A DNA stretch of 64,000 nt. It comes from Argopecten irradians (Eukaryota > Mollusca > Bivalvia > Pectinida > Pectinidae). The stretch spans positions 39,137,996-39,201,995 of the forward strand of contig NC_091143.1 in the NCBI RefSeq assembly GCF_041381155.1. The letters run 5' to 3'. This document shows positions 4,401 to 57,600 of this stretch, in pieces; the first letter of the stretch is position 1, and each line of letters opens with the position of its first letter. Under the pieces are notes generated by a model. That model was not told the DNA's origin. It ran no database searches and worked only from the letters and a program-made list of their open reading frames with translations. A program made the translations under genes and the position numbers.

Positions 4401-7400
4401 TTTGACATGTGAAGGATTTTTTACTATCCATTTCACTGACAGATGGACCGTACACCTCTCCACTACGCCTACCTGTTCTGCGACGAAAGCGAGGACACAA
4501 TCACCGTGATGGTCAACAATGGTGCTAATGCTGAATTCTGCGATGCTGTAAGTTACTGTTGTTGGCTAATTTTGGTCTTTTAGCAGAAGAATTGATATAA
4601 ACTTGTTTTCCCATCCTAGCTGTACCTATTTGTTTGTGTATGTATATCTCCATTATCTATTTGAATAGAACATTGTAGAACTAATTTTGGTCCAGCCAAT
4701 TAAGGGAGATTTAAAATAATATATTTTTGAAATAATAATGATTCATAAAAGAAAAAGTTTCCTCTTATTATATTAATTATTTATACTAGAAAAATAAAAT
4801 CTAAGAAAAATACTTTTTAAATATATAGAACTGTACTTTCAGTTTATTATATTTATTAACAATACTTGAAATACGTTTTAAAATCGTACACTGTTCATTC
4901 CTCTTATTATATTAATTAATAATACTAGAGATACATAATCTAAGAAAATACAATGTACTATTTTGCAATAACATACTGTGTTGCTCGAGACCCAGTTGTT
5001 TCTGCGTTTTCGTTTCTTTTCCTAAATTACAAACCAAAGTATTTTCAGTATTTTGTATTGAAAGGCTTGTCTATAGACCAAAGTTAGTCTAAATCGCAAA
5101 TAATCGTAAACATTCGTTAGATTTACGAACATAAGTTGATTCAGATTATAACATGATATGTACTTTACAGTTCGGGATGCGGCCGTCGGATATGACAGCT
5201 GCAAAGTGTGGTAGTCAGAAACTCGCTCAGATACAAAAGGACGTGACTGATCTCGAGTTCAACATCTACCTGTCTGAGAAAGACTTCTTAGCGTCATTTT
5301 CATCAGCTATCCAGGTGAGTATTGTCGGGGAAACTGATTCTTAATCTCATTCTCATCAGCTATCAAGGTTAGTATTGTCGGGGAGAAAGACTTCTTAACC
5401 TTATTCTCATCAGCTATCAAGGATAGCATGGTCGGTGAGATAGACCTCCTAATCTCTTTCTCCTCAGCTATCAAGGTTGGTATTGTCGGGGAGAAAGACT
5501 TCATGACGTCATTCTCATTTGCTATCTAGGTTAGTATTATCGGGAGAAAAGACTTGTTAATCTCATTCTCCTCAGCTATCAAGGTTGGTATTGTCGGGGA
5601 GAAAGACTTCATGACGTCATTCTCATTTGCTATCTAGGTTAGTATTATCGGGAGAAAAGACTTGTTAGCCTCATTCTCATCAGCTATCAAGGTTAGTGTT
5701 GTCGGTGAGATAGACCTCCTAATCTCATTCTCATCAGATATCTAGATTAATATTGTTAGGGAGAAAGATTCTTAGCCTCATTCTCATCAGCTATCAAGGT
5801 TAGTGTTGTCGGTGAGATAGACCTCCTAATCTCATTCTCATCAGATATCTAGATTAATATTGTTAGGGAGAAAGATTCTTAGCCTCATTCTCATCAGCTA
5901 TCAAGGTTAGTGTTGTCGGTGAGATAGACCTCCTAATCTCATTCTCATCAGATATCTAGGTTAATATTGTTAGGAAGAAAGATTCTTAGCCTCATTCTCA
6001 TCAGCTATCAAGGTTAGTGTTGTCGGTGAGATAGACCTCCTAATCTCATTCTCATCAGATATCTAGGTTAATATTGTTAGGGAGAAAGATTCTTAGCCTC
6101 ATTCTCATCAGCTATCAAGGCTAGTGTTGTCGGTGAGATAGACCTCCTAATCTCATTCTCAATAGCTGTCTGGGTTAATATTGTTAGGGAGAAAGATTCG
6201 TAGCGTCATTCTCATCAGCTATCAAGGTTAGTGTTGTCGGTGAGATAGACCTCCTAATCTCATTCTCAATAGCTGTCTGGGTTAATATTGTTAGGGAAAA
6301 AGATTCGTAGCGTCATTCTCATCAGCTATCAAGGTTAGTGTTGTCGGTGAAAAAGACCTCCTAATCTCATTCTCATCAGCTGTCTAGGTTAATATTGTTA
6401 GGGAGAAAGATTCTTAGCCTCATTCTCATCAGCTATCAAGGTTAGTGTTGTCGGTGAGATAGACCTCCTAATCTCATTCCCATCAGATATCTAGGTTAAT
6501 ATTGTTAGGGAGAAAGATTCTTAGCGTCATACTCATCAGCTATCAAGGTTAGTGTTGTCGGTGAGATAGACCTCCTAATCTCATTCTCATCAGCTGTCTA
6601 GGTTAAAATTGTTAGGGAGAAAGATTCTTAGCCTCATTCTCATCAGCTATCAAGGCTAGTGTTGTCGGTGAGATAGACCTCCTAATCTCATTCTCAATAG
6701 CTGTCTGGGTTAATATTGTTAGGGAGAAAGATTCTTAGCCTCATTCTCATCAGCTATCAAGGCTAGTGTTGTCGGTGAGATAGACCTCCTAATCTCATTC
6801 TCAATAGCTGTCTGGGTTAATATTGTTAGGGAGAAAGATTCTTAGCCTCATTCTCATCAGCTATCAAGGTTAGTGTTGTCGGTGAGATAGACCTCCTAAT
6901 CTCATTCTCATCAGCTGTCTGGGTTAATATTGTTAGGGAGAAAGATTCGTAGCGTCATACTCACTATCTTTCTATGTTAGTACTGTCCTTTCTACTAATT
7001 GCTCATCACCTCGGGGATATACAGGTGTCCTTAAAAACATGTCCCGAGTTTGACGCTTTATAAAAATGTTTTGATAGACTGAGAAATTTGATCTATTTAC
7101 CATTAGAAAGTCGGGACATGTTTTTTGGAACACTCTGCATTTTCCGTTCGTAACTCATTCACCCATGAAAATTCATTATGGACTGGCCTAGTCTTTGATT
7201 AAGAACAGCCTCAATGTTTATTCGTGGGTGAATGAGTTTTATGACCTTATCTGTATTTAGAGGAATTTGTAATTTTGTGAATAATTACATTTTATTTCAT
7301 ACATTTTATTAAAGAAATCCGTAGAATAACATTGTTATGAAATTTATGTCAGAAATCCATAAAATGATAATGTTCAGAGAAAGAGCATGTAGCAGAATCT

Positions 7401-17960: not shown

Positions 17961-19755
17961 TTACTTTTGCTTTCTATAGTAGAGTATGAAGGCTATGATC
18001 GCCATCAGGACCAAAGCTCCCAGCACCCCACCTACTATTGCAGGCCAATACTCCATTGGATCTTGAGATACGGTAGGGTCCAGTCCTGCTGTAGTTGTTG
18101 AGGGTTTTGTAGGCTCCAATAAAGGTGTTACATATCTAATATCAACCCCATCGTTACTGTTCGTACTCTGTTCTGTGGTTTTCGTACTTTGTTCTGTGGT
18201 TTTTGTTCCAGCCCCATCGTTACTGTTCGTACTCTGTTCTGTGGTTTTCGTACTTTGTTCTGTGGTTTTTGTTCCAGCCCCATTGTTACTGTTCGTACTT
18301 TGTTCTGTGGTCTGTGTTCCAGCCTCATTGTTACTGTTCGTACTCTGTTCTGTGGTCTGTGTTCCAGCCCCATTGTTACTGTTCGTACTCTGTTCTGTGG
18401 TCTGTGTTCCAGCCTCATTGTTACTGTTCGTACTTTGTTCTGTGGTCTTTGTTCCAGCCTCATTGTTACTGTACGTATTTTGCTCTGTGGTCCGTGTTCC
18501 AGCCTCATTGTTACTGTTCGTACTTTGTTCTATGGTCTGTGTTCCAACTTCATTGTTACTGTTCGTACTTTTTTCTATGATCTGTATTCCAGCCCCATTG
18601 TTACTGTTCGTACTTTGTTCTGTGGTCTGTGTTCCAGCCCCAATGTGACTGTTCGTACTTTGTTCTGTGTTTTTTGTTCCAGCCTCATTGTTGCTGTTCG
18701 TACTTAATTCTGTGGTCTTTGTTCCAGCCTCATTGTTACTGTTCGTACTTTGTTCTGTGGTCTGTGTTCCAGCCTCATTGTTACTGTTCGTACTTTGTTC
18801 TGTGGTCTGTGTTCCAGCCTCATTGTTACTGTTCGTACTTTGTTCTGTGGTCTGTGTTCCAGCCTCATTGTTACTGTTCGTACTTTGTTCTGTGGTCTGT
18901 GTTCTACCCCCAATGTGATTGTTCGTAGTTTGCTCTGTGGTCTGTGTTCCAGCCTCATTGTTGCTGTTCGTATTTTGTTCTGTGGTCTTCGTTCCAGCCC
19001 AAATGTTACTGTTTGTACTTAGTTCTGTAGCCTTAATTTGGTTCTTGCTAGAACTTGGGTTTGTGTTGGTAGTATGTATACCATTCCCTGTATTATCAAC
19101 AACATAGACAACTGTGCTGGAGTCTATTCCTATTGTATCAGTATTCTGTTGTGTAGAACTAATTTCTGTAATTTCAGTAGAAATGAGTTTTGTTTGTGAC
19201 ATTACTTTGGTGGTTGTTTCTTGAAAATCTACGTCTGTTGTTGACTTTTCTGGGTTCGATGTTGTTTTCATTGTGATTGCCGATAACTCCCCCGGCATTG
19301 TAGTGAATGGTGGTTGGGGTGGTTGTGTGATGGTATCACTGGTTGTAAAGAACATACTCTGAGTACCGAATACATCCACGACTGAATTGGTGGCATGGAG
19401 TGAAGCCCCGTTTGACATAGTTGGAGTGACAGTATCTTGACCTTGTGGTGTATTTCCATCTGTCACACCTGTATTATTACTATTTACCACAGTATCATTT
19501 CCACACAGATCGACTGGACTTCTGCTGCTATTTTCGTTTCCAGAAGTTAGATGTTTCCGAGTAAATCCGCAGCGCTTTTCCGTCGTTGCTCTCATAGGTG
19601 TTGTGGCTTGTAACAGCCAGTCTGTGACTCCGGTAAGCACAGGAGTAGTTGGGCTGTCAGGACAGTGTTGGCTATCCGGGTAAGTCAAACAGTCTATAGC
19701 GCAGTTCTGTCCGTAATATGACGGATCACAGCCATACCGGAACACCATCCGCAGT
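17961..19755 (-). CDS. Mucin gene exon 5: partial DSL, Thr/Ser repeats, TM helix
   Basis: Acceptor TTTTACAG|A completes a Glu codon, then LRMVFRYGCDPSYYG. It carries the partial DSL, the Thr/Ser linker, the 45-bp coding repeats and the helix IVGGVLGALVLMAIIAFIL. Stop TAA is at 17963-17961. The stop overlaps a consensus donor (AAAA|GTAAGT), so a longer, spliced cytoplasmic tail is possible. Confidence 0.85.
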
Positions 19756-22700
19756 CTGTAAAATAGTTCTTTATACACAATACCTACGTTTGCATGTATA
19801 TTTATCTATGTGACAACTCGTATTTTTAACATTGCAAAAGTAGTAGAGAATATCACAGCTCTAACGCACAAATATGTTACAGTTTAGAAATTTAAAACTT
19901 GTGAAAAATGTTATTTGTGTCTTTCATGGAAAGCATTAAATACAAATTATACTCTGATCGTCGGGATGTATAGTGTATATACTGGGGTGATAGAGAGGTA
20001 TTATTGGAATAACTGGAATTTTAGGGAGGTATCAGTATACTTACTCTGATGGATCATGTGATCGCATTCCCATTTCATGCATGTAGATAAAATCAAGAGA
20101 CGGTCCCTCATGCTCGAAGTTAAACAGGAACATGTCGATAAGTGTCAATGAAGAACCATTGTTATCATCGATATCGTACACGTCAACTGTTATATTGACC
20201 TGTCCCTGAAATATAATAATATCGTATACATCAACTGTTATATTAACCTGTCCCTAAAATATGTTAATATCGTAAACGTCAATTTTTATATTAACCTGTT
20301 CCTAAAATATGTCAATAACGTACAAGCCAAATGTTATATTGACCTCGCTTTAAATTTATATTAATATCGTGCACATCAACTGTCAAATTAATCCGTTTGC
20401 GGACGACGTCCATATGCACGTGATACAAATATTTACTTACCGGCCATCTGCGGAAAGTAAAGGTCAAAGGATTGGTCACTCCTTCCAATGACGTCGGAAA
20501 GAAAACGGCTTTAGCGTTATCTATGGGATGTTCTGATGGTCTGCTGGGGACACTGTAACAACATAAAAACATAAGTAATTTACATGTCTATTCAAATTAA
20601 GATACAGAAGTTAAGGCAAAAAATCTTAAGTTAAGGAGCCTTCTAACGTCGAGGTCGGGAGCCTTCCTAAAGCTTTCTTATAGAGAATTTTAAGTTAAGG
20701 AATTCCTAAAATTCAAGGAATGTTCGTGAGACTGGGACCTGGCGTCAAGAAACTTATGAACTTGCAAGACACTGCATACACGACACGAGAGGCCGTCCAT
20801 AGGACGTAAATATGATAACCAAACCAACCATTTTAAAGCATTTTTCCCAATATATATTTTGGGTCGATGAAGTCTCAAAAATCGGAAGGATATTCTTCAT
20901 TGACGCGAAGTGGGTATTTATTACGCATACATGTTTGTGCATTTACTTATTTTTACGTTAATATTCAGTTGCCTAAGTTAAATTTGGCCAAAGACTGTGC
21001 CGGTTTCTAAAAGTCCCCGTGAAAATGTTTCTCGTGTATGACGTCATAATATTCGACATACAATTCTTTAACACAATGGAAAATAACCTCAAACTTCTCA
21101 CCAATGAAAATGAGTGTAACAAAATAAATCAAATGATTATGTTGCACAAGGTATCACTCACCTGTCTATGCCTTTCAGCGAAACTTCAAATATCAAATCA
21201 CAGGAATCCAGACATCCCGTCTCTGTCCGAGGGCCATCACAACATTGGCCGGTGAAATTTAGGTTCTGGGGATTGATGAATCCCAAAAAGCCGACATAAA
21301 ACTGCCCTTTAGGTGATGCTAGATGTACCTGAAAGATTTCAATCGGTGAACATTAGGCGAGACTAGATAACCCTAAAGATTGTAATCGATGAACATAGGC
21401 GAAAAAAGCTCAGCTCTCTTGGGAATCACGAGCTCGTCTGTCTTTCTAGTCTGGTTTCAAATAAACTGGCTAAAAGCACTGATTACATTATATATGAGGT
21501 CGCCACTACTTACTCCATGTGTTTGTATTGTTATTTTTGTTTGTTTATTATTTTGTTTGCTTGTTTTGTTTGTTTCTTTTTTTGTAATATCCCATTGTAG
21601 AACTCTTCACAGTTGGAGGTACAATTTTAAAAGCAGCTCGTTCATGTCGTACTCAAAGCATGACGCGTTGTTTATTTCATGTCACACAAACACAAACAGA
21701 ATATATAATGGATGATCTCATAAAGCAGAAATATCACCCGGCAAAGCCCTGATACCCATTAAAACCACTCTAGAATGACCTCTCACCGTCAGGAGATGTT
21801 TTAGTCAGCTCGGCGTTACTAAGGCTGATCAGGGACGTGGTACCTTATCATGCCCGCTCCCACCGGGCACTCCCGTATAATTCGGTCCAAACCAATCACA
21901 GGAATGGGACTCATCAATGATAGGACTTTACACCACGATTCTACACAACCAGGGTAGGTGACATAGTGGATTGAGGAATGTCAAAAATGCACTGACTCAG
22001 TTTGAAATTCAGAAAGAATATTCGCTGTTACTTTTTGTTTATACATATATATTGTTTTGTAAATGCAAAAAAAAAAAAAAAAAAAAAAAAATCCGGTCTG
22101 GCCAAGACACGATCTCTTGTCTAAAAACAATATTTCTTAGGTCTTCTACTCCGTATGTCCGCTGTTATATCATGCAAACAGTTTGGAAAATGATTCTGTG
22201 TACGTTCGGTAGTCGGTGTTCCTGTTTGGCGGTTTTCCATTTTTTAATCTGATTAAAATACAGATCCTTATTATCACTACGTTGATAAGAGGATCTGACA
22301 ACATCCCATTAGGAGTCACGTTCTGGTGACCTTTGGAAATGGCCAATCAAATTGCTGCTGCAAGAATTTTGACTCGGGACGAAGTAGTTTGAGAAAGCTG
22401 TCAGAATTATATTCGTGTATATAGTCATCTCGCCAAAACAGCACAACAAAGCTAAATGTATATGTATACTGGGACGAAAATAAGTTATCAATTGACATAA
22501 CATTGTGTAGAAAATGCCTTTGATCTGAAGCACACGTTGGAAAAAGGTCATCCGAACATGACCCCTTATGGGATGTTGTCAGATGCTCTATTGAACGGAG
22601 TGGTTATAAGGATCTGAATTTTAATCAGATTGTACATTTTTCTGCTTTTTTTTCAATTCTGTCTCTAACGTGATATTTTGCTCGGAAAGTCATGTCATGT

Positions 22701-31451: not shown

Positions 31452-31700
31452 GATCCAGCTAGGATTTCCTACGGGAAGAGCTCGGACTAAGATCCGGCTA
31501 GGATTTCCCACGGGAAGGGCTCGGGGGAGGTTCCGGCTAGGATTTTCCGCGGGAAGAGCTCGGGTAAGATCCGGCTAGGATTTCCCACAGGAAGGGCTCG
31601 GGTAAGATCCGGCTAGGATTTCCCACGGGAAGGGCTCAGGGAAGATCCGGCTAGAGTTTCCCACGGGAAGGACTCGGATAAGACCGGCTAGCATTCCCTA
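31452..31700. repeat. ~38-bp minisatellite, about 6.5 units
   Basis: Units of the type GATCCGGCTAGGATTTCCCA plus CGGGAAGGGCTCGGGTAA; GC-rich against an AT-rich background. Confidence 0.95.
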
Positions 31701-32119
31701 CGGTAAAAGACACTTTTCATATCGACACAAGTCACTCAAAAATTCATTACAGAATAATCCTCGCGACACTGGCTCTAGTATCATGTCCTGATATCGGTTA
31801 TTAGTTTAAAGATGAGCGGACGGATAACTGTTTAGTAGAGAGAAATGTATCAATAATTAGGTAGAAACACAGGCGAATATTATAATTGTAGTGCTTGTTT
31901 AATGAACTGGAAAGTTGGTGTCTATGCGAAGTGACAACCAAAACAGAATTGGTTCCCTGCCGTCAATTCACTATATAGCTAGATACTACAATAAATGGAT
32001 TACATTTTGTTTAGGTAGCCAATGACAGTAGAGACTTTGCTGTGCTGTGTATTTTTACATCGTCAGAATAAATAAATTATATATATATATCAAGTTAATA
32101 TACCAGTCATACATGTAAG

Positions 32120-33275: not shown

Positions 33276-34085
33276 AGAACCGCGTAGAGATGTGCTTCTT
33301 CTCAGACTAATGGCGGATTATATAAAACCATTATCTACCTAGCACTTATCTTCAAGGCTTTCTGGTGTACTCTATAGTGACCATCCATGTGTAAATCAGC
33401 AAAACACGCCTCATTAATATAAAATGGTTAGTTATTAACTGTACAGGGAATACCTGATTATCGATAAAACCTGCAAGCCACGTACGTATTAATTGTGACG
33501 GAGAATGGTTATTGAGCTATCGATCGATGTAACTCGGAGAATCACCAAAACTTTCTGTCAATCATGTACCAAGTATTATCCCAATCTCGTCCAGCCTTTC
33601 CTGTGGTTGTTTGGTGACCATCTAGACGAGAGCGCTCTATGATAGACATCATATCAATCAAGTTCCATCGACCGGGTGTTCGGAAATACTTTGTTACACT
33701 ACATATTCCTTAAGTATGGAAACAAGATCAGAAAGATCTTTCTTACACACCGGAGCGTTACCCTAATGTGAGTAATGAGATTTCGAATCCGATAAGAAGA
33801 GTCCGACTCGAAATAGCACAGCGTAAAAAATGATGCTTTTAAAATGTTTGTGGACTAGTGATATGGCGATGTGGGGTTCAATTACTGATTAACTACGGAC
33901 AGATGGCTATAAATATAAACCAGACACAATGGCGTGTACCTGTTTCTAATGCATCAGATAGAGAAATGATGTAACCAGTCGAATTGGAACAAGCCTGTTA
34001 TAAGGTTCTCATGATTACAACGAAGGGACTATGTTGTGAGAAAGTTCCAGGTGGGAAGATACTTGGTGGAGAATACAGTTATCAA
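33276..34085. other. Unique intergenic DNA before the satellite
   Basis: No gene recognised. An ATG frame starting MITTKGLCCEK at 34010 runs into the first satellite unit; it could be a 5' exon but there is no support. Confidence 0.35.
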
Positions 34086-37000
34086 CAACACATACTGAGG
34101 TAAGACGTACTACAGACACAACACATACTGAGGTAAGACATACTACAGACACAACACATACTGAGGTAAGACGTACTACAGACACAACACATACTGAGGT
34201 AAGACGTACTACAGACAACACATACTGAGGTAAGACGTACTACAGACACAACACATACTGAGGTAAGACGTACTACAGACAACACATACTGAGGTAAGAC
34301 GTACTACAGACACAACACATACTGAGGTAAGACGTACTACAGACACAACACATACTGAGGTAAGACGTACTACAGACACAACACATACTGAGGTAAGACG
34401 TACTACAGACACAACACATACTGAGGTAAGACGTACTACAGACACAACACATACTGAGGTAAGACGTACTACAGACACAACACATACTGAGGTAAGACGT
34501 ACTACAGACACAACACATACTGAGGTAAGACGTACTACAGACAACACATACTGAGGTAAGACGTACTACAGACACAACACATACTGAGGTAAGACGTACT
34601 ACAGACACAACACATACTGAGGTAAGACGTACTACAGACACAACACATACTGAGGTAAGACGTACTACAGACACAACACATACTGAGGTAAGACGTACTA
34701 CAGACACAACACATACTGAGGTAAGACGTACTACAGACACAACACATACTGAGGTAAGACGTACTACAGACAACACATACTGAGGTAAGACGTACTACAG
34801 ACAACACATACTGAGGTAAGACGTACTACAGACAACACATACTGAGGTAAGACGTACTACAGACACAACACATACTGAGGTAAGACGTACTACAGACAAC
34901 ACATACTGAGGTAAGACGTACTACAGACACAACACATACTGAGGTAAGACGTACTACAGACACAACACATACTGAGGTAAGACGTACTACAGACACAACA
35001 CATACTGAGGTAAGACGTACTACAGACACAACACATACTGAGGTAAGACGTACTACAGACACAACACATACTGAGGTAAGACGTACTACAGACACAACAC
35101 ATACTGAGGTAAGACGTACTACAGACACAACACATACTGAGGTAAGACGTACTACAGACACAACACATACTGAGGTAAGACGTACTACAGACACAACACA
35201 TACTGATGGTAAGACGTACTACAGACAACACATACTGAGGTAAGACGTACTACAGACAACACATACTGAGGTAAGACGTACTACAGACAACACATACTGA
35301 GGTAAGACGTACTACAGACACAACACATACTGAGGTAAGACGTACTACAGACAACACATACTGAGGTAAGACGTACTACAGACACAACACATACTGAGGT
35401 AAGACGTACTACAGACAACACATACTGAGGTAAGACGTACTACAGACACAACACATACTGAGGTAAGACGTACTACAGACAACACATACTGAGGTAAACG
35501 ACGTACTACAGACAACACATACTGAGGTAAGACGTACTACAGACACAATACATACTGAGGTAAAGACACTACAGACACAACACATACTGAGGTAAGACGT
35601 ACTACAGACACAACACATACTGAGGTAAGACGTACTACAGACAACACATACTGAGGTAAGACGTACTACAGACACAACACATACTGAGGTAAGACGTACT
35701 ACAGACACAACACATACTGAGGTAAGACGTACTACAGACAACACATACTGAGGTAAGACGTACTACAGACACAACACATACTGAGGTAAGACGTACTACA
35801 GACAACACATACTGAGGTAAGACGTACTACAGACAACACATACTGAGGTAAGACGTACTACAGACAACACATACTGAGGTAAGACGTACTACAGACACAA
35901 CACATACTGAGGTAAGACGTACTACAGACACAACACATACTGAGGTAAGACGTACTACAGAACTACAACAGACAACACATACTGAGGTAAGACGTACTAC
36001 AGACAACACATACTGAGTAAGACTACTAGAGAAGACAACACAACTGAGGTAAGACGTACTACAGACAACACATACTGAGGTAAGACGTACTACAGACACA
36101 ACACATACTGAGGTAAGACGTACTACAGACAACACATACTGAGGTAAGACGTACTACAGACACAACACATACTGAGGTAAGACGTACTACAAGACACAAC
36201 ACATACTGAGGTAAGACGTACTACAGACAACACATACTGAGGTAAGACGTACTACAGACACAACACATACTGAGGTAAGACGTACTACAGACACAACACA
36301 TACTGAGGTAAGACGTACTACAGACAACACATACTGAGGTAAGACGTACTACAGACAACACATACTGAGGTAAGACGTACTACAGACACAACACATACTG
36401 AGGTAAGACGTACTACAGACACAACACATACTGAGGTAAGACGTACTACAGACACAACACATACTGAGGTAAGACGTACTACAGACACAACACATACTGA
36501 GGTAAGACGTACTACAGACAACACATACTGAGGTAAGACGTACTACAGACACAACACATACTGAGGTAAGACGTACTACAGACACAACACATACTGAGGT
36601 AAGACGTACTACAGACACAACACATACTGAGGTAAGACGTACTACAGACACAACACATACTGAGGTAAGACGTACTACAGACAACACATACTGAGGTAAG
36701 ACGTACTACAGACAACACATACTGAGGTAAGACGTACTACAGACAACACATACTGAGGTAAAGACGTACTACAGACAACAACACATACTAGGTAAGACGT
36801 ACTACAGACACAACACATACTGAGGTAAGACGTACTACAGACAACACATACTGAGGTAGAACGTACTACACAACAATACTGAGGTAAGACGTACTACAGA
36901 CAACACATACTGAGGTAAGACGTACTACAGACAACACATACTGAGTAAGACGTACTACAGACACAACACATACTGAGGTAAGACGTACTACAGACAAACA

Positions 37001-40000
37001 CATACTGAGGTAAGACGTACTACAGACACAACACATACTGAGGTAAGACGTACTACAGACACAACACATACTGAGGTAAGACGTACTACAGACAACACAT
37101 ACTGAGGTAAGACGTACTACAGACACAACACATACTGAGGTAAGACGTACTACAGACAACACATACTGAGGTAAGACGTACTACAGACAACACATACTGA
37201 GGTAAGACGTACTACAGACAACACATACTGAGGTAAGACGTACTACAGACAACACATACTGAGGTAAGACGTACTACAGACAAACACATACTAGTAAGAC
37301 GTATACTGAGGTAAGACGTACTACAGACAACACATACTGAGGTAAGACGTACTACAGACACAACACATACTGAGGTAAGACGTACTACAGACACAACACA
37401 TACTGAGGTAAGACGTACTACAGACACAACACATACTGAGGTAAGACGTACTACAGACACAACACATACTGAGGTAAGACGTACTACAGACACAACACAT
37501 ACTGAGGTAAGACGTACTACAGACACAACACATACTGAGGTAAGACGTACTACAGACACAACACATACTGAGGTAAGACGTACTACAGACAACACATACT
37601 GAGTAAGACGTACTACAGACAACACATACTGAGGTAAGACGTACTACAGACAACACATACTGAGGTAAGACGTACTACAGACACAACACATACTGAGGTA
37701 AGACGTACTACAGACACAACACATACTGAGGTAAGACGTACTACAGACACAACACATACTGAGGTAAGACGTACTACAGACACAACACATACTGAGGTAA
37801 GACGTACTACAGACAACACATACTGAGGTAAGACGTACTACAGACAACACATACTGAGGTAAGACGTACTACAGACAACACATACTGAGGTAAGACGTAC
37901 TACAGACAACACATACTGAGGTAAGACGTACTACAGACAACATATACTGAGGTAAGACGTACTACAGACACAACACATACTGAGGTAAGACGTACTACAG
38001 ACACAACACATACTGAGGTAAGACGTACTACAGACAACACATACTGATGTAAGACGTACTACAGACAACACATACTGAGGTAAGACGTACTACAGACAAC
38101 ACATACTGAGGTAAGACGTACTACAGACAACACATACTGAGGTAAGACGTACTACAGACACAACACATACTGAGGTAAGACGTACTACAGACACAACACA
38201 TACTGAGGTAAGACGTACTACAGACACAACACATACTGAGGTAAGACGTACTACAGACAACACATACTGAGGTAAGACGTACTGAGTAAGAGTACTACAG
38301 ACAACACATACTGAGGTAAGACGTACTACAGACAACACATACTGAGGTAAGACGTACTACAGACACAACACATACTGAGGTAAAGACGTACTACAGTAAG
38401 ACACTACAGACAACACATACTGAGGTAAGACGTACTACAGACACAACACATACTGAGGTAAGACGTACTACAGACAACACATACTGAGGTAAGACGTACT
38501 ACAGACACAACACATACTGAGTAAGACGTACTACAGACACAAACTACTAAGACATACACATACTGAGGTAAGACGTACTACAGACAACAACATACTGAGG
38601 TAAGACGACAACACATATGAGAAGACGTACTACAACAACACATACTGAGGTAAGAAGACGTACTAAGACAGACAACACATACTGAGGTAAGACGTACTAC
38701 AGACAACACATACTGAGGTAGACGTACTACAGATACAACACATACTGAGGTAAGACGTACTACAGACAACACATACTGAGGTAAGACGTACTACAGACAA
38801 CACATACTGAGTAACGTACTACAGACAACACATACTGAGGTAAGACGTACTACAGACTCAGACAACACATACTGAGGTAAGACGTACTACAGACACAACA
38901 CATACTGAGGTATACAGAAACATACGAGTAAGACGTACTACAGACACAACATACTGAGGTAAGACGTACTACAGACAACACATACTGAGGTAAGACGTAC
39001 TACAGACAACACATACTGAGGTAAGACGTACTACAGACACAACACATACTGAGGTAAGACGTACTACAGACAACACATACTGAGGTAAGACGTACTACAG
39101 ACACAACACATACTGAGGTAAGACGTACTACAGACAACACATACTGATGTAAGACGTACTACAGACACAACACATACTGATGTAAGACGTACTACAGACA
39201 ACACATACTGAGGTAAGACGTACTACAGACACAACACATACTGAGGTAAGAGACGTACTACAGACACACAACACATACTGAGGTAAGACGTACTACAGAC
39301 AACACATACTGAGGTAAGACGTACTACAGACAACACATATACTGAGGTAAGACGTACTACAGACACAACACATACTGAGGTAAGACGTACTACAGACACA
39401 ACACATACTGAGGTAAGACATACTACAGACACAACACATACTGAGGTAAGACGTACTACAGACAACACATACTGAGGTAAGACGTACTACAGACAACACA
39501 TACTGAGGTAAGACGTACTACAGACACAACACATACTGAGGTAAGACGTACTACAGACACAACACATACTGAGGTAAGACGTACTACAGACACAACACAT
39601 ACTGAGGTAAGACGTACTACAGACACAACACATACTGAGGTAAGACGTACTACAGACACAACACATACATACTGAGGTAAGACGTACTACAGACAACACA
39701 TACTGAGGTAAGACGTACTACAGACACAAACACATACTGAGGTAAGACGTACTACAGACACAACACATACTGAGGTAAGACGTACTACACACACAACACA
39801 TACTGAGGTAAGACGTACTACAGACAACACATACTGAGGTAAGACGTACTACAGACAACACATACTGAGTAAGACGTACTACAGACACAACACATACTGA
39901 GGTAAGACGTACTACAGACAACACATACTGAGGTAAGACGTACTACAGACAACACATACTGAGGTAAGACGTACTACAGACACAACACATACTGAGGTAA

Positions 40001-41172
40001 GACGTACTACAGACAACACATACTGAGGTAAGACGTACTACAGACACAACACATACTGAGGTAAGACGTACTACAGACACAACACATACTGAGGTAAGAC
40101 GTACTACAGACAACACATACTGATGTAAGACGTACTACAGACACAACACATACTGAGGTAAGACGTACTACAGACAACACATACTGAGGTAAGACGTACT
40201 ACAGACACAACACATACTGAGGTAAGACGTACTACAGACAACACATACTGAGGTAAGACGTACTACAGACAACACATACTGAGGTAAGACGTACTACAGA
40301 CAACACATACTGAGGTAAGACGTACTACAGACAACACATACTGAGGTAAGACATACTACAGACACAACACATACTGAGGTAAGACGTACTACAGACAACA
40401 CATACTGAGGTAAGACGTACTACAGACAACACAATACTGAGGTAAGACGTACTACAGACAACACATACTGAGGTAAGACGTACTACAGACAACACATACT
40501 GAGGTAAGACGTACTACAGACAACACATACTGAGTAACAGTACTACAGACACACATACTGAGGTAAGACGTACTACAGAGACAACACATACTGAGGTAAG
40601 ACGTACTACAGACTACAGACAACACATACTGAGGTAAGACGTACTACAGACACAACACATACTGAGGTAAGACGTACTACAGACACAACACATACTGAGG
40701 TAAGACGTACTACAGACACAACACATACTGAGGTAAGACGTACTACAGACACAACACATACTGAGGTAAGACGTACTACAGACACAACACATACTGAGGT
40801 AAGACGTACTACAGACAACACATACTAAGAGTACTACAGACAAAATACTGAGTAAGAGTACTACAGACACAACACATACTGAGGTAAGACGTACTACAGA
40901 CAACACATACTGTAAGACGTACTACAGACAACACATACTGAGAGTACTACAGACAACATACTGAGGTAAAGACGTACTACAGACAATATATACTGAGGTA
41001 AGACTACTACAGACACAACACATACTGAGGTAAGACGTACTACAGGACAAACACATACTGAGGTAAGACGTACTACAGACAACACATACTGAGGTTAGAT
41101 TTACTACAGACAACACATACTGAGGTAAGACGTACTACAGACACAACACATACTGAGGTTAGATTTACTACA
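34086..41172. repeat. 7.1-kb satellite array of 31- and 33-bp units
   Basis: About 220 units of ACAACACATACTGAGGTAAG plus ACGTACTACAG, with an optional extra AC giving a 33-bp unit. Long stretches are identical; 38280-38950 and 40530-41100 hold many small indels. Each unit has a consensus 5' splice site (GAG|GTAAGA). Minus-strand frames stay open because the 33-bp form is a multiple of three; these are not genes. Confidence 0.98.
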
Positions 41173-41890
41173 GTCACAGAAATGGAAAAGATATGATATG
41201 TATACTTATTCAAACAGAGATAGAAGCAATATGATAATATATAAATTATAGAAATAGGGACAATGTAATTGTGTACTTAATATATATTTTAGAGACAGAT
41301 AAAATATGATTGTATATTTATGTATAGATAGAGACGATATGTGTGTATATATCTATAGAATTAGAGTAAATGTCATGGTTACCTCATAACCCCAACAAAA
41401 TAAAAAATATATTCCTTATATTTACAGTTTTTCACGTAAATGAATATTATTCATTCTCGCGACATTCGAAAATTTTCTATCAAAATACCCATATTTTGTT
41501 CTCTCCCGTGATCGTCAACACATTCGATGAAACAGCTGATTGAAATCAAGTCATTTATATGTTCCCACCAAAAGTGGGTTCATGACGACCCCACGTTGTT
41601 ACGTCAGCGACTATATTCCCGTAACAATAGAATCGCCGCACATGTTGTACTATCATTATACACTGATAATGATAATACTAGAAAGCATGGTTATTGAGTC
41701 CATGTCAGTGCAAACTACAGTTTGCAAAGAAAGAAACGAAATGATTGCATATTTTTAGAAATAGAGACAATGTAATTGTATACAGTGTATTTATAGAGAT
41801 AGAGACAATATGGCTATACGATATAGTTACATATTTAGAGAAATACAGATAATGTGATTGCATATTTTTAGAGAACGAAATAATATTATT
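41173..41890. repeat. Decayed ~33-bp AGAGATAGAGACAATATGAT repeat with unique insert
   Basis: Variants of TATAGAGATAGAGACAATAT recur at 41210-41360 and 41757-41880. The sequence between (41380-41740) is unrecognised. Confidence 0.6.
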
Positions 41891-51530: not shown

Positions 51531-51647
51531 TTAGGAGCTAGTAAAATAGTTTGGGGGTTGGCAGCCCTGGACTACTTCCTTTGTGATAATTACTCTCTTG
51601 ATGTTTGATCTAGGCACTTCAAACAGCGCTTCCTCCAACAGGTTCTC
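51531..51647 (-). CDS. CLPX: ClpX terminal exon
   Basis: Acceptor TTTTATTTCAG|GAG, 38 codons and TAA 51533-51531. Encodes [20 protein letters not shown] and ends QPPNYFTSS, the expected small-domain end of ClpX with a short tail. Confidence 0.92.
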   Translation of the reverse strand, partial: ENLLEEALFEVPRSNIKRVIITKEVVQGCQPPNYFTSS

Positions 51648-54600
51648 CTGAAATAAAATAATATATAAGAAACTAGAGGCTCAATGGGCATAAACGGTCA
51701 TCTAAATATTAATGCAGCCTATTTGACCTATGTGACCGTGAATGATGGTCAAGTCCACTCCTGAAATAAAATAATACATAAGAAACAAGAGGCCTAATGG
51801 ATCTTAATGGTCATCTGACCTATCTGTAGCCTATTTGACCCATGTGACTGTGAATGATGGTCAAGGTCATTCATATGCAAAAAACGTGATAGCCCCTTTC
51901 ATCCCAGAATACTAGTCCCTTCTAGTTTCCTCTCGAAAAAAATCGTACGTTTACTGGGATCCGGAGAAGACGTTACAAATATCTGACGTCATACATAAAA
52001 GGGACGGGCGACGTTAAAGGTGTTAGCCAATTTAACTCCTGTGACCATGAATGAAGGCCGAGGATATCCATATGAACATACATAGTAACCCTTCTTCCAC
52101 GCTTGTTCCATGTCTAATCTCAGGTTTCTAGGGATATAAATCATTGGCAAGTCGTTTAAAGATCTAAGCATTTTTAACCCCCGTGACTTTGAATGATAGT
52201 CAATGTCATTCTTGGTAGTACTTCATCCAAGCATACTACAAACACAATATAAATACACTGGGTCTTTCGATTATTAAGGGAAGTCATTTGAATAAAAAGT
52301 TTACGCACGGCGGACGGCGCACGACCACGGATGAAGCATGGTGACATACTGTAAACTAACTTTCTTGCGCGGCCATTAAATTTCGCGATTTCATATTCAA
52401 AATACGTTGCGGAGATCACATGTTGTGGAATGAAAATAAATTAAAATATATGTTTAATATATATTTAGTATTGTTTTTTTTTATTTATTTGCAAAGATAA
52501 ATTTTCGCAAATTCATTTTGATCACGAAATCCTCGAGAGTAAATCGCACGCGAAAGAAAGGTGATTTACAGTATAGGTCATCCTGACCATTCGGGTCAGA
52601 TGACCTATAAAAAGGAATAAGGAAAAAAGGAAATAGTCCTCAGACCTCGAAATCATCTGATATGCTGGTCATACTTACCAAAGAAAGACTCCAACCTCGA
52701 GGTCAAACTTTCTTTTGATAGGCTAGCCATACTTACCAACAAAAGACTCCGACCTCGAGCTCCAACTTTCTTTTGATAGGCTGACCATACTTACCAACAA
52801 AGCCCTCAGACCTCGAGCTCCAACTTTCTTTTGATAGGCTAGCCATACTTACCAACAAAAGACTCAGACCTCGAGCTCCAACTTTCTTCTGATAGGCTAG
52901 CCATACTTACCAACAAAGCCCTCAGACCTCGAGCTCCAACTTTCTTTTGATAGGCTAGCCATACTTACCAACAAAAGACTCAGACCTTGAGCTCCAACTT
53001 TCTTCCGATAGGCTGGCCACACTTACCAACAAAGCCCTCAGACCTCGAGCTCCAAATCTTCTGATAGGCTAGCCACACTTACCAACAACGCCCTCAGACC
53101 TCGAGCTCCAACTTTCTTTTGATAGGCTGGCCACACTTACCAACAACGACCCTCAGACCTCGAGCTCCAACTTTCTTTTGATAGGCTGGCCACACTTACC
53201 AACAAAGACTCAGACCTCAGAGCTCGAAATCATCTGATAGGCTAGCCACACTTACCAACAACGCCCTCAGACCTCGAGCTCCAACTTCTTTTAAGCTGGC
53301 CACACTTACCAACAACGCCCTCAGACCTCGAGCTCCAACTTTCTTCCGATAGGCTGGCCACACTTACCAACAACACCCTCAGACCTCGAGCTCCAACTTT
53401 CTTTTGATAGGCTAGCCATACTTACCAACAACGCCCTCAGACCTCGAGCTCCAACTTTCTCTGATAGGCTAGCCATACTTACCAACAACGCCCTCAGACC
53501 TCGAGCTCCAACTTTCTTCCGATAGGCTGGCCATACTTACCAACAAAGCCCTCAGACCTCGAGCTCCAACTTTCTTCTGATAGGCCGAGTCCGCAATGGC
53601 GTGCAAAGCGTCTGGTGTGAGAACCAGCTGACACTGATAAAGATACATCACAAACGAAATTCAAATAACAGTACTTTTTGTGTTTCTATTGTCATTTTTA
53701 AACATATATCGCACATTAAAAGACACTGAAATCTCACATAACTTTCCGTTTTCTGACACATGCATTGGATTGTTGCCTGACCTTGGAGATCTTGGCGCAC
53801 AACCAAGAATGATCTGTCTGTCAATAGAAAGGATCTTAGCCATTCACTTGTTTCCTTTGTCCTTTGAATTATTTATAAATTTTGCATTGCAGCATGCACA
53901 CAATAAAATGGTCAAACTCAATACAGCCAACAGATGATTGAATTTGTTCCAAAATGGATATGAAGAACTGCTGACAAAACAAACCCTACAACAAGAATGT
54001 TTACAATCGGACAGACCACAGATGAAAAGTGATTTGAATAGCTAGCCAACAATCTTATAAAGGTGGATCAAAAACATGGATATATATGAATGCATGTGTG
54101 ATAAGCTATAACTAGAATGATTTAATAGTTAAAGATGCTCCACCGCTGGCAAATGGTATTTTTTCACTATCAAAAACAGGAACAGACAGTTTAGTATTTT
54201 CTTCAGTTACAAAAGTTATTTACTTTACACCATTACCACCATTGAAAAGTTTGAGCTTCTAATTTTACTTCAAGTTAAAAATATGAAACATAATAAATTG
54301 CATCCCGAAAAAATTCCGTGGCACTATATTCCATATGACATGAAGTACTGATTGCGCATGCACCAAAGGCGGAATAAATTATTTCATTTTATTTTTGTGT
54401 TAATTAGGCATATATATATACACGATTAAATACCAATCATTGTTCAAATGATGAATACCATTTATGCTCTGTCGGAGGTGGAGCATCTTTAATGTTATGA
54501 CTAATTAATATTTGTAATATATTCTTTGTACAAAAGAAAGTTTGCAAATCCATATTAGCTTACATTTTCTGTCCTAAATCTAGCAATAAACTGCTTGGCT

Positions 54601-57600
54601 ATGGCATTTTTTGGCTCTGTCAGAATTTTCACAAGCATTTCTGTAGAAAGTCCATGAAACGGCACCAGTATAGGCATACGACCACAAAATTCAGGGATCA
54701 TTCCAAACTTGACAATGTGCTCAGGCTCTACGTGGGACAACTGACAGTCCGTCTCTTCATTCAATAGTTGTCCAAAACCATACACCTACGCAAAAATGAT
54801 ATTTTAACAATATAAGGATTGGAATCATTTCAAGTCATATAGAGGGTTTTTGTTCTTTTTCTTTCTTTAATTCATGAAGGTAATACTTAAGATTGAGATT
54901 TCTTGTTCTCTTACTTTCTTTAATTCATGAAGGTCATACTTAAGATTTGTTTTCTTGCTCTCTTACTTTTTTTAATTCATGAAGGTCATACTTAGATTTT
55001 AGATAGGTTTATCAAGGTATAATATTCTAGTCCTGAATGTTATGATGTGTGACGTGACATACAATGTATATAGAAGACAGAAATAATTGGATAATTTCAT
55101 GTCATTTTTATCAATCACCAAAATTGCATTCATATTGAGTTAAATACACTACTGTACATTGCTTATAATAAATTACAGATAAAAGTAGGCATATGTTATC
55201 AGAATACTCCTTGGGTTCTTATCAACCGATGGGACTAATTCACGTACCGTGTGCCTGATTATGTTTCTGTAGAACTAGTATCGCGGGATATAATCTTTGA
55301 GGTCATTCCATCACAATAGAAACAATGGGTACAATCATTCATCACAATAGAAACAATGTCCTACAATGCTTTCCATCACCAATAGAAACCATATCACCGA
55401 AACGTCATCCATCACCAATAGAAACAATAGTCCCGTACAACGTCATTCCATCACCAATAGAAACAATAGTCCCATACAACGTCATTCCATCACCAATAGA
55501 AACAATAGTCCCATACAACGTCATTCCATCACCAATAGAAACAATAGTCCCATACAACGTCATTCCATCACCAATAGAAACAATGGTCCCGTACAACCTC
55601 ATTCCATCACCAATAGAAACAATGGTCCCGTACAACTTCATTCCATCAACAATAGAAACAATGGTCCCGTCCACGTACAACTCTCCATCACAATAGAAAC
55701 AATGGTCCCTACAACTTCATTCCATCAACAATAGAAACAATGGTCCCGTACAACTTCATTCCATCAACAATAGAAACAATGGTCCCGTACAACCTCATTC
55801 CATCACCAATAGAAACAATGGTCCCATACAACTTCATTCCATCACCAATAGAAACAATAGTCCCATACAACTTCATTCCATCACCAATAGAAACAATAGT
55901 CCCGTACAACGTCATTCCATCACCAATAGAAACAATAGTCCCATACAACCTCATTCCATCACCAATAGAAACAATAGTCCCATACAACCTCATTCCATCA
56001 CCAATAGAAACAATGGTCCCGTACAACCTCATTCCATCACCAATAGAAACAATGGTCCCATACAACTTCATTCCATCAACAATAGAAACAATAGTCCCGT
56101 ACAACGTCATTCCATCACCAATAGAAACAATAGTCCCATACAACTTCATTCCATCACCAATAGAAACAATAGTCCCATACAACGTCATTCCATCACCAAT
56201 AGAAACAATAGTCCCATACAACGTCATTCCATCACCAATAGAAACAATAGTCCCATACAACGTCATTCCATCACCAATAGAAACAATAGTCCCATACAAC
56301 TTCATTCCATCACCAATAGAAACAATGGTCCCATACAACCTCATTCCATCACCAATAGAAACAATGGTCCCATACAACCTCATTCCATCACAATAGAAAC
56401 AATGGTCCCGTACAACTTCATTCCATCACCAATAGAAACAATGGTCCCATACAACTTCATTCCATCACAATAGAAACAACAGTCCCATACAATCACAATA
56501 GAAACAAAGTCCCATACAACTCATTCCATCACAATAGAAACAACAGTCCCATACAACTCATCCATCACCAATAGAAAAACAATAGTCCCATACAACGTCA
56601 TTCCATCACCAATAGAAACAATGCCCGTACAACTTCATTCCATCAAACCAATAGAAACAATGGTCCCATACAACCTCATTCCATCACCAATAGAAACAAC
56701 AGTCCCATACAACGTCATTCCATCACCAATAGAAACAACAGTCCCATACAACGTCATTCCATCACCAATAGAAACCATAGTCCCTAAAAAAATATCATCA
56801 GGTGTTAGTGGTACGTGAATTAGTCCCATTGTAATCACCTTCTGGCCTCTGCTGTTCTCTATGATTTTTTCCAGACCATTGAAAGCTCCGGATCCCACAA
56901 ACAGGATGTCAGTGGTATCAATCTCTTTGTAGGAAGAAGGCATTGACCTTTTGTCAGGAACTCTGACCTTTGTACCCTCTAGGATCTTGAGTAGTCTCTG
57001 CTGAACTCCCTCTCCGCCAACATCTCTGTCAGAATTTGGAGATGTGGTTTTCTTAAGCTTATCGATTTCATCAAGGAAGATTATCCCTGTAGCAAACAAA
57101 TGTTTATTTTCTACAGTCCTGATATACTGTATTGGCCAAAATTGTAGCTGTAACTCATATAGTATTGGATACAATGCTGATGTTAGAGGCATCACATAAA
57201 CCATGGGATGGGGGAGTTTAGGGACCGCAGAATCAAACCAAAAATAGATTCCTGGAAATCCCCTTTTGGGCACAAGATTTCATAGAGAGGTGAATGTTTC
57301 GGAGCCTGCTGATTGGGTATTCAGGGCGCATCAGTTTCAAATGTTTAATGTATGGGTAGGGCACTACATGTAGATATAAAATATGTAAAGAAATTTTAAA
57401 ATTCTGTCAAGTGTGTGTCTGACAGGGGGAGGTAATCAATATTGGAATTTCATGAATATTTTGGTCAATTTTTGGTGCGGAATTCAACATAAGATGGAAC
57501 CCCCCACATAAAAGTTTAGCAAGATGGTAGATCTTTATTTCTTTTTATTCACAGGTATGCCAGATGCCATTCTTCAAAATTAGTGACAGGTGACCAGACT

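Follow-up and report, generated by a model that had tools for sequence, protein, structure and literature searches.

An intron of a ClpX gene in this bivalve genome is occupied by a tandem array whose unit is a copy of the adjacent exon's 3′ edge together with its splice donor, and junction arrays are present in at least eight other genes of the same genome. We consider it probable that these are "mirage"-type minisatellites, that is, passive tandem duplications of splice junctions that have hit many genes and are tolerated while the exon-proximal site is used. The window analyzed here is a stretch of 64,000 nucleotides (G000:C10:39137996-39201995) from an assembly of 845.8 Mb.

ClpX lies on the minus strand of the window, where its exons are recognizable in order by eye. 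The exon that is the source of the repeated unit (53541..53633, minus strand; 5′ edge assigned by eye to TTTATCAG|TGT) is followed by an exon with the acceptor TTATTTCAG (51570..51647, minus strand, far end not fixed). Joined, the two give a Pfam match to ClpB_D2-small with an E value of 9e-9, which becomes 8.1e-10 with the addition of one more exon; the exon at 53541-53633 is real. The array covers 52656..53585 (minus strand) in 16 units, the exon-nearest of which is the exon's own 3′ edge, and TRF returns for this interval a period of 58, 16.2 copies, and 89% matches. Sixteen GGTAAG sites are found on the minus strand, from the authentic site at 53540 to 52678, and because they are spaced 54–59 bp apart every internal unit carries a donor; beyond 52678 there is a truncated final piece without one. 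The preliminary description had read this intron as about 15 copies of the exon edge and donor, with both elements in every ~58-bp unit and the array starting at the real exon. That reading was confirmed, with 15 further copies (54–59 bp) that each comprise the last ~44 nt of the exon and 14 nt of intron. The alignment of units to exon 53541-53633 that it had proposed was run, and identity is 81–97% in 14 of the 15 copies and 70% in the other.

TTG|GTAAGT is kept in 16/16 donors, the real one included, and the longer GTAAGTATGGC is exact in seven of the 16. When the units were aligned, the nine donor columns were invariant and 37 of 61 columns were variable, a result equaled by 0 of 20,000 column shuffles for a region picked after inspection and units cut at GGTAAG. 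Recent homogenization of the array would give the same pattern. Another array beside a ClpX donor, at 55335-56784, was rejected as a junction copy, its unit not being exon-derived by eye.

The authentic donor (TTG|GTAAGT; 53535..53540, minus strand) is the sole one of the 16 that keeps the ClpX frame. In a frame test, the exon as far as each donor was linked with the opening 75 nt of the ClpX exon that follows, and a premature stop resulted with each of the 15 GTAAGT decoys (52673..53482, minus strand). The earlier suggestion that the copies act as reserve donors is refuted by these stops, as none of the 15 decoys gives a productive mRNA. With a simple donor matrix set from general knowledge, 14 of the 15 decoys score equal to the authentic site (the scan offset one unit by a base). 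Since decoys and authentic site are equal by this measure, position, not strength, must decide.

Three other boundaries in the window had been described as behaving alike, and two of them do. In an ankyrin-repeat gene, a donor-side junction array (5294..6963, plus strand) holds 31 copies of a ~54-bp unit consisting of the exon's last 39 nt and the donor. Its source exon (5170..5314, plus strand, start approximate), ending ...SEKDFLASFSSAIQ|GTGAGT, is preceded by open frames with ankyrin repeats, one of which matches Ank_5 (E 6.7e-8). The decoys are decayed: the authentic donor is CAG|GTGAGT and the decoys are mostly AAG|GTTAGT or TAG/TGG|GTTAAT, with GT kept in 25/31 units and the donor hexamer in 0/31 decoys. 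The second is an acceptor-side junction array (20171..20391, minus strand; 48-bp unit, about 4.6 copies) that repeats the acceptor along with ~33 nt from the start of the exon GQVNITVDVYDIDDNNG... (20044..20205, minus strand; far end approximate, no Pfam match); going outward, 44, 41, 35, and 31 of 50 bases are like those of the real junction. At the third boundary, 51645..51868 (minus strand), there is a two-copy intronic duplication at an acceptor, with TTTCAG|GAG in copy and original and 56 of 100 upstream bases alike in an ungapped comparison. GAG is all that it has in common with the exon, and the absence of exon sequence past GAG rules it out as a fourth junction copy. Splice-like units also occur at 34085-41178 and 31452-31703, but no adjoining exon was seen by eye and neither is counted as a junction array.

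The search was extended to a random sample of twenty 10-kb stretches (195 kb without N) whose positions were fixed before inspection. A rule of period 20–120 and at least 3 copies gave 21 arrays in this sample and nine more in the window; the ClpX array is left out of these 30 because its best row has a period of 173. Inspection covered the eight of these 21 whose units are splice-like, and an exon edge is copied in at least four of the 21: a PEX14 donor array (L009; two open frames upstream, when joined, match Pex14_N at E 8.8e-15, the exon itself named by eye), a kinesin acceptor array (L011; Pfam E 3.7e-9, PDB E 8.6e-10), a dynein heavy chain donor array (L013; DHC_N2 in a downstream open frame, E 2.3e-10, the exon itself having no Pfam match), and a donor array (L026) whose exon has no Pfam match and which shows AG/GT signals in 6/11 units and the donor hexamer in 3/11. 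The units at L016:5468, L017:6479, and L020:2369 are splice-like, with no exon alongside by eye. A 51-bp array at L013:3709-4108 begins 5 nt past a dynein heavy chain donor and does not include it.

Under an assumed, not measured, density of 0.4–1.2 junctions per kb, 0.4–1.2 junction arrays would be expected in the random sample as compared to the four or more found (P(≥4) 0.0007–0.03). Donor scores of at least 9 were reached by 5 of the 30 arrays (window included), whereas random segments gave 0.8 ± 0.8 and reversed units gave 0; only two of these five (L009 and L026) adjoin an exon. The corresponding acceptor score was reached by 4/30 arrays (random 1.2 ± 1.2, up to 6), and only the kinesin array is an acceptor-side copy. 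In a 7-mer ranking of array units from a 264-kb sample, GGTAAGT was unremarkable.

Kinase exons provided a further sample. A family search gave 142 matches, from which we took 20 exons with an open frame little longer than the match, each with 240 bases on either side, and added two 300-base flanks of a 21st; eight loci (L033-L040) were left out. Junction arrays are found at 2 of up to 42 exon edges (a match does not necessarily end at a splice junction), namely L051 (...KLADFGVAGQLT|GTAAAA, 95 bp × 2.3) and L056 (...LALDYLQTYNIIHR|GTAAGTC, 39 bp × 6.6), and the interval for 2/40 edges is 0.6–17%. A 25-bp × 2.8 array at L052:454-523 ends at a kinase acceptor without exon sequence and was not counted. 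Two kinase matches of identical score, one on a small contig (G000:C255:26713-28047) and one on C6 (C6:3135321-3136655), probably represent a second haplotype remaining in the assembly.

Five GGTAAGT arrays on C1 were inspected for neighboring exons, and two adjoin a plausible one. In enolase the junction array is donor-side, and its exon has a PDB match (E 1.4e-10); at L031 the exon is supported by V4R at E 0.012, below the cut-off, and contributes only ~8 nt to the unit. No exon was found in the 300 bases upstream of the arrays at L029 and L032, and L030 has another array, and no exon, directly upstream. The L031 exon (IKEKRTAAHELACMAASGDDNKFRIVAEGG) is present twice, at 95-214 and 1451-1570, 1,356 bp apart, with 207/220 bases alike and an array after each copy; exon and array were probably duplicated together. 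A dispersed repeat (AAAGATGCTYCACCGCTG...) is, by eye, common to L032 and 54130-54480 of the window. Across ClpX, ankyrin, 20171, enolase, PEX14, dynein, kinesin, L026, and the two kinases, the exon portion of the unit is roughly 17–44 nt by eye. The claim that junctions are amplified recurrently in this genome is thereby upheld, the same anatomy having been found in other genes such as enolase, PEX14, kinesin, and the kinases.

Nine clear arrays are at donors (ClpX, 5294, PEX14, L013, L026, enolase, L031, L051, and L056) and two at acceptors (20171 and kinesin). Enolase and L031 were found through a donor word, so this tally leans toward donors; the two samples selected without regard to arrays give a ratio of 5 to 1, which is not significant (p 0.22). 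Junction arrays are apparently commoner at donors than at acceptors. It would fit that transcription reaches the authentic site ahead of the decoys in a donor array, but only after them in an acceptor array, where decoys would do more harm. Copy identity falls with distance from the junction at the 20171 acceptor; the fall is weak in 5294 (rho -0.47) and not significant in ClpX, L013, L026, L031, or L056.

In a word test on both strands of the whole genome, we counted occurrences of three word copies 25–55 bases apart (24–54 for 8-mers). The donor word GGTAAGT gave 27,965 such triples versus 7,820 for its reverse TGAATGG; single counts, made for these two words only, are 141,817 and 129,344, respectively. 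GGTAAGT is the first of ten 7-mers, and the broken donor word GGTCAGT, with 23,334 (TGACTGG, 11,934), attains 83% of its count. The other triples number 6,136 for GGATAGT and 13,267 for TGATAGG, 5,480 for GGAAAGT and 2,510 for TGAAAGG, and 3,967 for the acceptor word TTTCAGG and 2,852 for its reverse GGACTTT. As 8-mers, the donor AGGTGAGT gave 5,171 versus 1,256 for its reverse and the acceptor TTTTGCAG 182 versus 1,057; neither acceptor word is clearly enriched in whole-genome triples. Identical pairs occur among the four counts of the TTTCAGG run (1906/1906) and of the AGGTGAGT run (628/628).

Distinct arrays on C1 were counted by eye among the matches listed, a procedure that favors words with long arrays early on. 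The counts were 5 in 2.35 Mb for GGTAAGT, 3 in 2.93 Mb for GGTCAGT, 13 in 39.5 Mb for TGAATGG, 9 in 34.5 Mb for GGATAGT, 9 in 26.5 Mb for GGAAAGT, 2 in 7.15 Mb for TTTCAGG, and 12 in 41.3 Mb for AGGTGAGT. Among these matches the density for GGTAAGT, 2.1 per Mb, is above the 0.26–0.34 of four words (p 0.0013–0.0123) and not distinct from that for GGTCAGT (1.0 per Mb, p 0.25). Word counts alone are no proof of junction bias because GGTCAGT comes near GGTAAGT. The assertion of the preliminary description that such arrays exceed chance is made likely by the random sample (at least 4/21) but is left unproven by GGTCAGT, which comes close to the donor word in count and does not differ significantly in density. 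A genome-wide bias of arrays to junctions is likely, not proven.

Arrays of this kind most likely match the "mirages" of amphioxus, so far described mainly in lancelets. These are minisatellite-like repeats across the exon-intron boundary (Adh3, the globins BflGb6 and BflGb9, troponin C, PGBD5) that occur at either boundary; splicing is regular and the repeats are unstable in length (PMC3087553; PMC3902484). The present arrays likewise cross the boundary and include exon sequence, duplicate both 5′ and 3′ boundaries (the acceptors of 20171 and kinesin L011), and keep AG/GT in many, not all, units (ClpX 16/16, ankyrin 25/31, L026 6/11). Regular splicing is reported for amphioxus, whereas the bivalve arrays are known here from the sequence of one assembly. 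Unit sizes are 31–95 bp in the bivalve, and are given as 150–160 bp for the amphioxus globins and 10–72 bp for Adh3; the bivalve arrays affect at least nine genes of one genome, with the donor side ahead 9 to 2. Canestro et al. 2002 is said to be the first report of mirages. The host here is a bivalve (exons of scallop myosin light chain, PDB 1b7t, are found on C11 at 73, 86, 90, and 85% identity), not a cephalochordate, and the host is not part of the defining mechanism; this is therefore a new lineage for a known kind of repeat. Against PDB chains, the scallop light chain scores 329 bits with itself, 168 with a squid chain, and 147–160 with others that are apparently vertebrate smooth-muscle or non-muscle chains. 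Among the matches listed by searches of the openly accessible literature, which does not include subscription papers, no mollusc report of such arrays was found.

Two other systems are comparable in part. To judge by its title, the IFI6 type (1995) is a tandem repeat supplying several donors, as in the ClpX array. Unlike such a functional multiple-donor minisatellite, the ClpX decoys destroy the frame, with 0/15 productive. The alternative donors of the IFI6-type repeat are reportedly used. In human segmental-duplication genes, variable internal tandem repeats at exon-intron boundaries alter introns, and about half of the repeats lie in coding exons of recently duplicated paralogues (PMC2812944). 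Boundary repeats there can form new introns (PMC2812944), whereas the bivalve exons were found intact, several of them in conserved genes.

The "mirage" reading would begin with a short tandem duplication across an exon-intron junction. The inner copies would then multiply in the intron by slippage or unequal exchange, and the outermost copy, which serves as the working edge of the exon, would for that reason not change. If the spliceosome goes on using the exon-proximal site, mRNA and protein would be unchanged and the array therefore tolerated.

Several alternatives assign the arrays either no biological reality or a function. We give hardly any credence to an assembly artefact: assembling tandem arrays is difficult and the number of copies is that of the assembly, but the copies differ from one another and from the exon, and the pattern is present in at least nine genes. 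It is very improbable that the arrays are U1-binding sites kept by selection to shield long introns from premature polyadenylation. Two donor words are indeed commoner in tandem than their reversed forms, with acceptor words not clearly so; against this, decoy donors decay in several arrays, acceptor-side arrays exist, and the donor excess over GGTCAGT is small. Also improbable, if somewhat less so, is that the ClpX decoys are functional and lower or switch ClpX output via unproductive splicing and mRNA decay. The identical donor core of all 15 decoys and the premature stop that each of them causes are what a poison switch would give. Yet the donor hexamer is lost from every decoy of the sister 5294-6963 array and kept by so few at L026, arrays occur in unrelated genes and at acceptors too, and recent homogenization would also yield the ClpX donor identity.

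The remaining alternatives concern how junctions come to be copied. Ordinary minisatellite turnover with no junction preference, in which some seeds happen to straddle a junction and so attract notice, is a possibility that we regard as doubtful. The genome is array-rich (~24% of the window consists of tandem arrays), arrays contain the broken donor word almost as often as the real one, at a density not significantly different, the 7-mer ranking shows no bias, and there are just four random-sample arrays and two at the kinase edges. These points are countered by the excess of the four over expectation, although 13 of the 21 arrays were uninspected, and by the C1 density of GGTAAGT arrays among the matches listed, which is higher than for four words, not for GGTCAGT. 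At the other extreme, a process aimed at donors and coupled to transcription or splicing (e.g., through R-loops or a paused polymerase at the 5′ splice site) might go on copying 5′ exon edges into the intron. Some ten thousand junction arrays would then exist in this one genome as raw material for new introns and exons. We think this rather unlikely. Extrapolation of four junction arrays per 195 kb gives ~17,000 genome-wide, or a few per cent of splice junctions.

New introns have been proposed to arise when entire splice junctions are copied in tandem, something seldom observed, and a genome with many arrays at varied stages of decay would open that route to testing. The way in which decoys are passed over, the course of their decay, the donor versus acceptor rate, and whether any copy turns into a new exon could be followed there. 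It would also show that the "mirages" of lancelets are not peculiar to them.

Two other repeats of the window were noticed. The 7-kb array at 34085-41178 has a 33-bp unit whose frame (TTHTEVRRTTD...) is open in the short stretch translated, and it perhaps encodes a threonine-rich repeat. On the minus strand, 17964-19805 is a 614-codon open frame that contains a 45-bp serine/threonine-rich repeat and has a weak DSL match at its start (E 0.12, below the cut-off), perhaps a membrane mucin-like protein.
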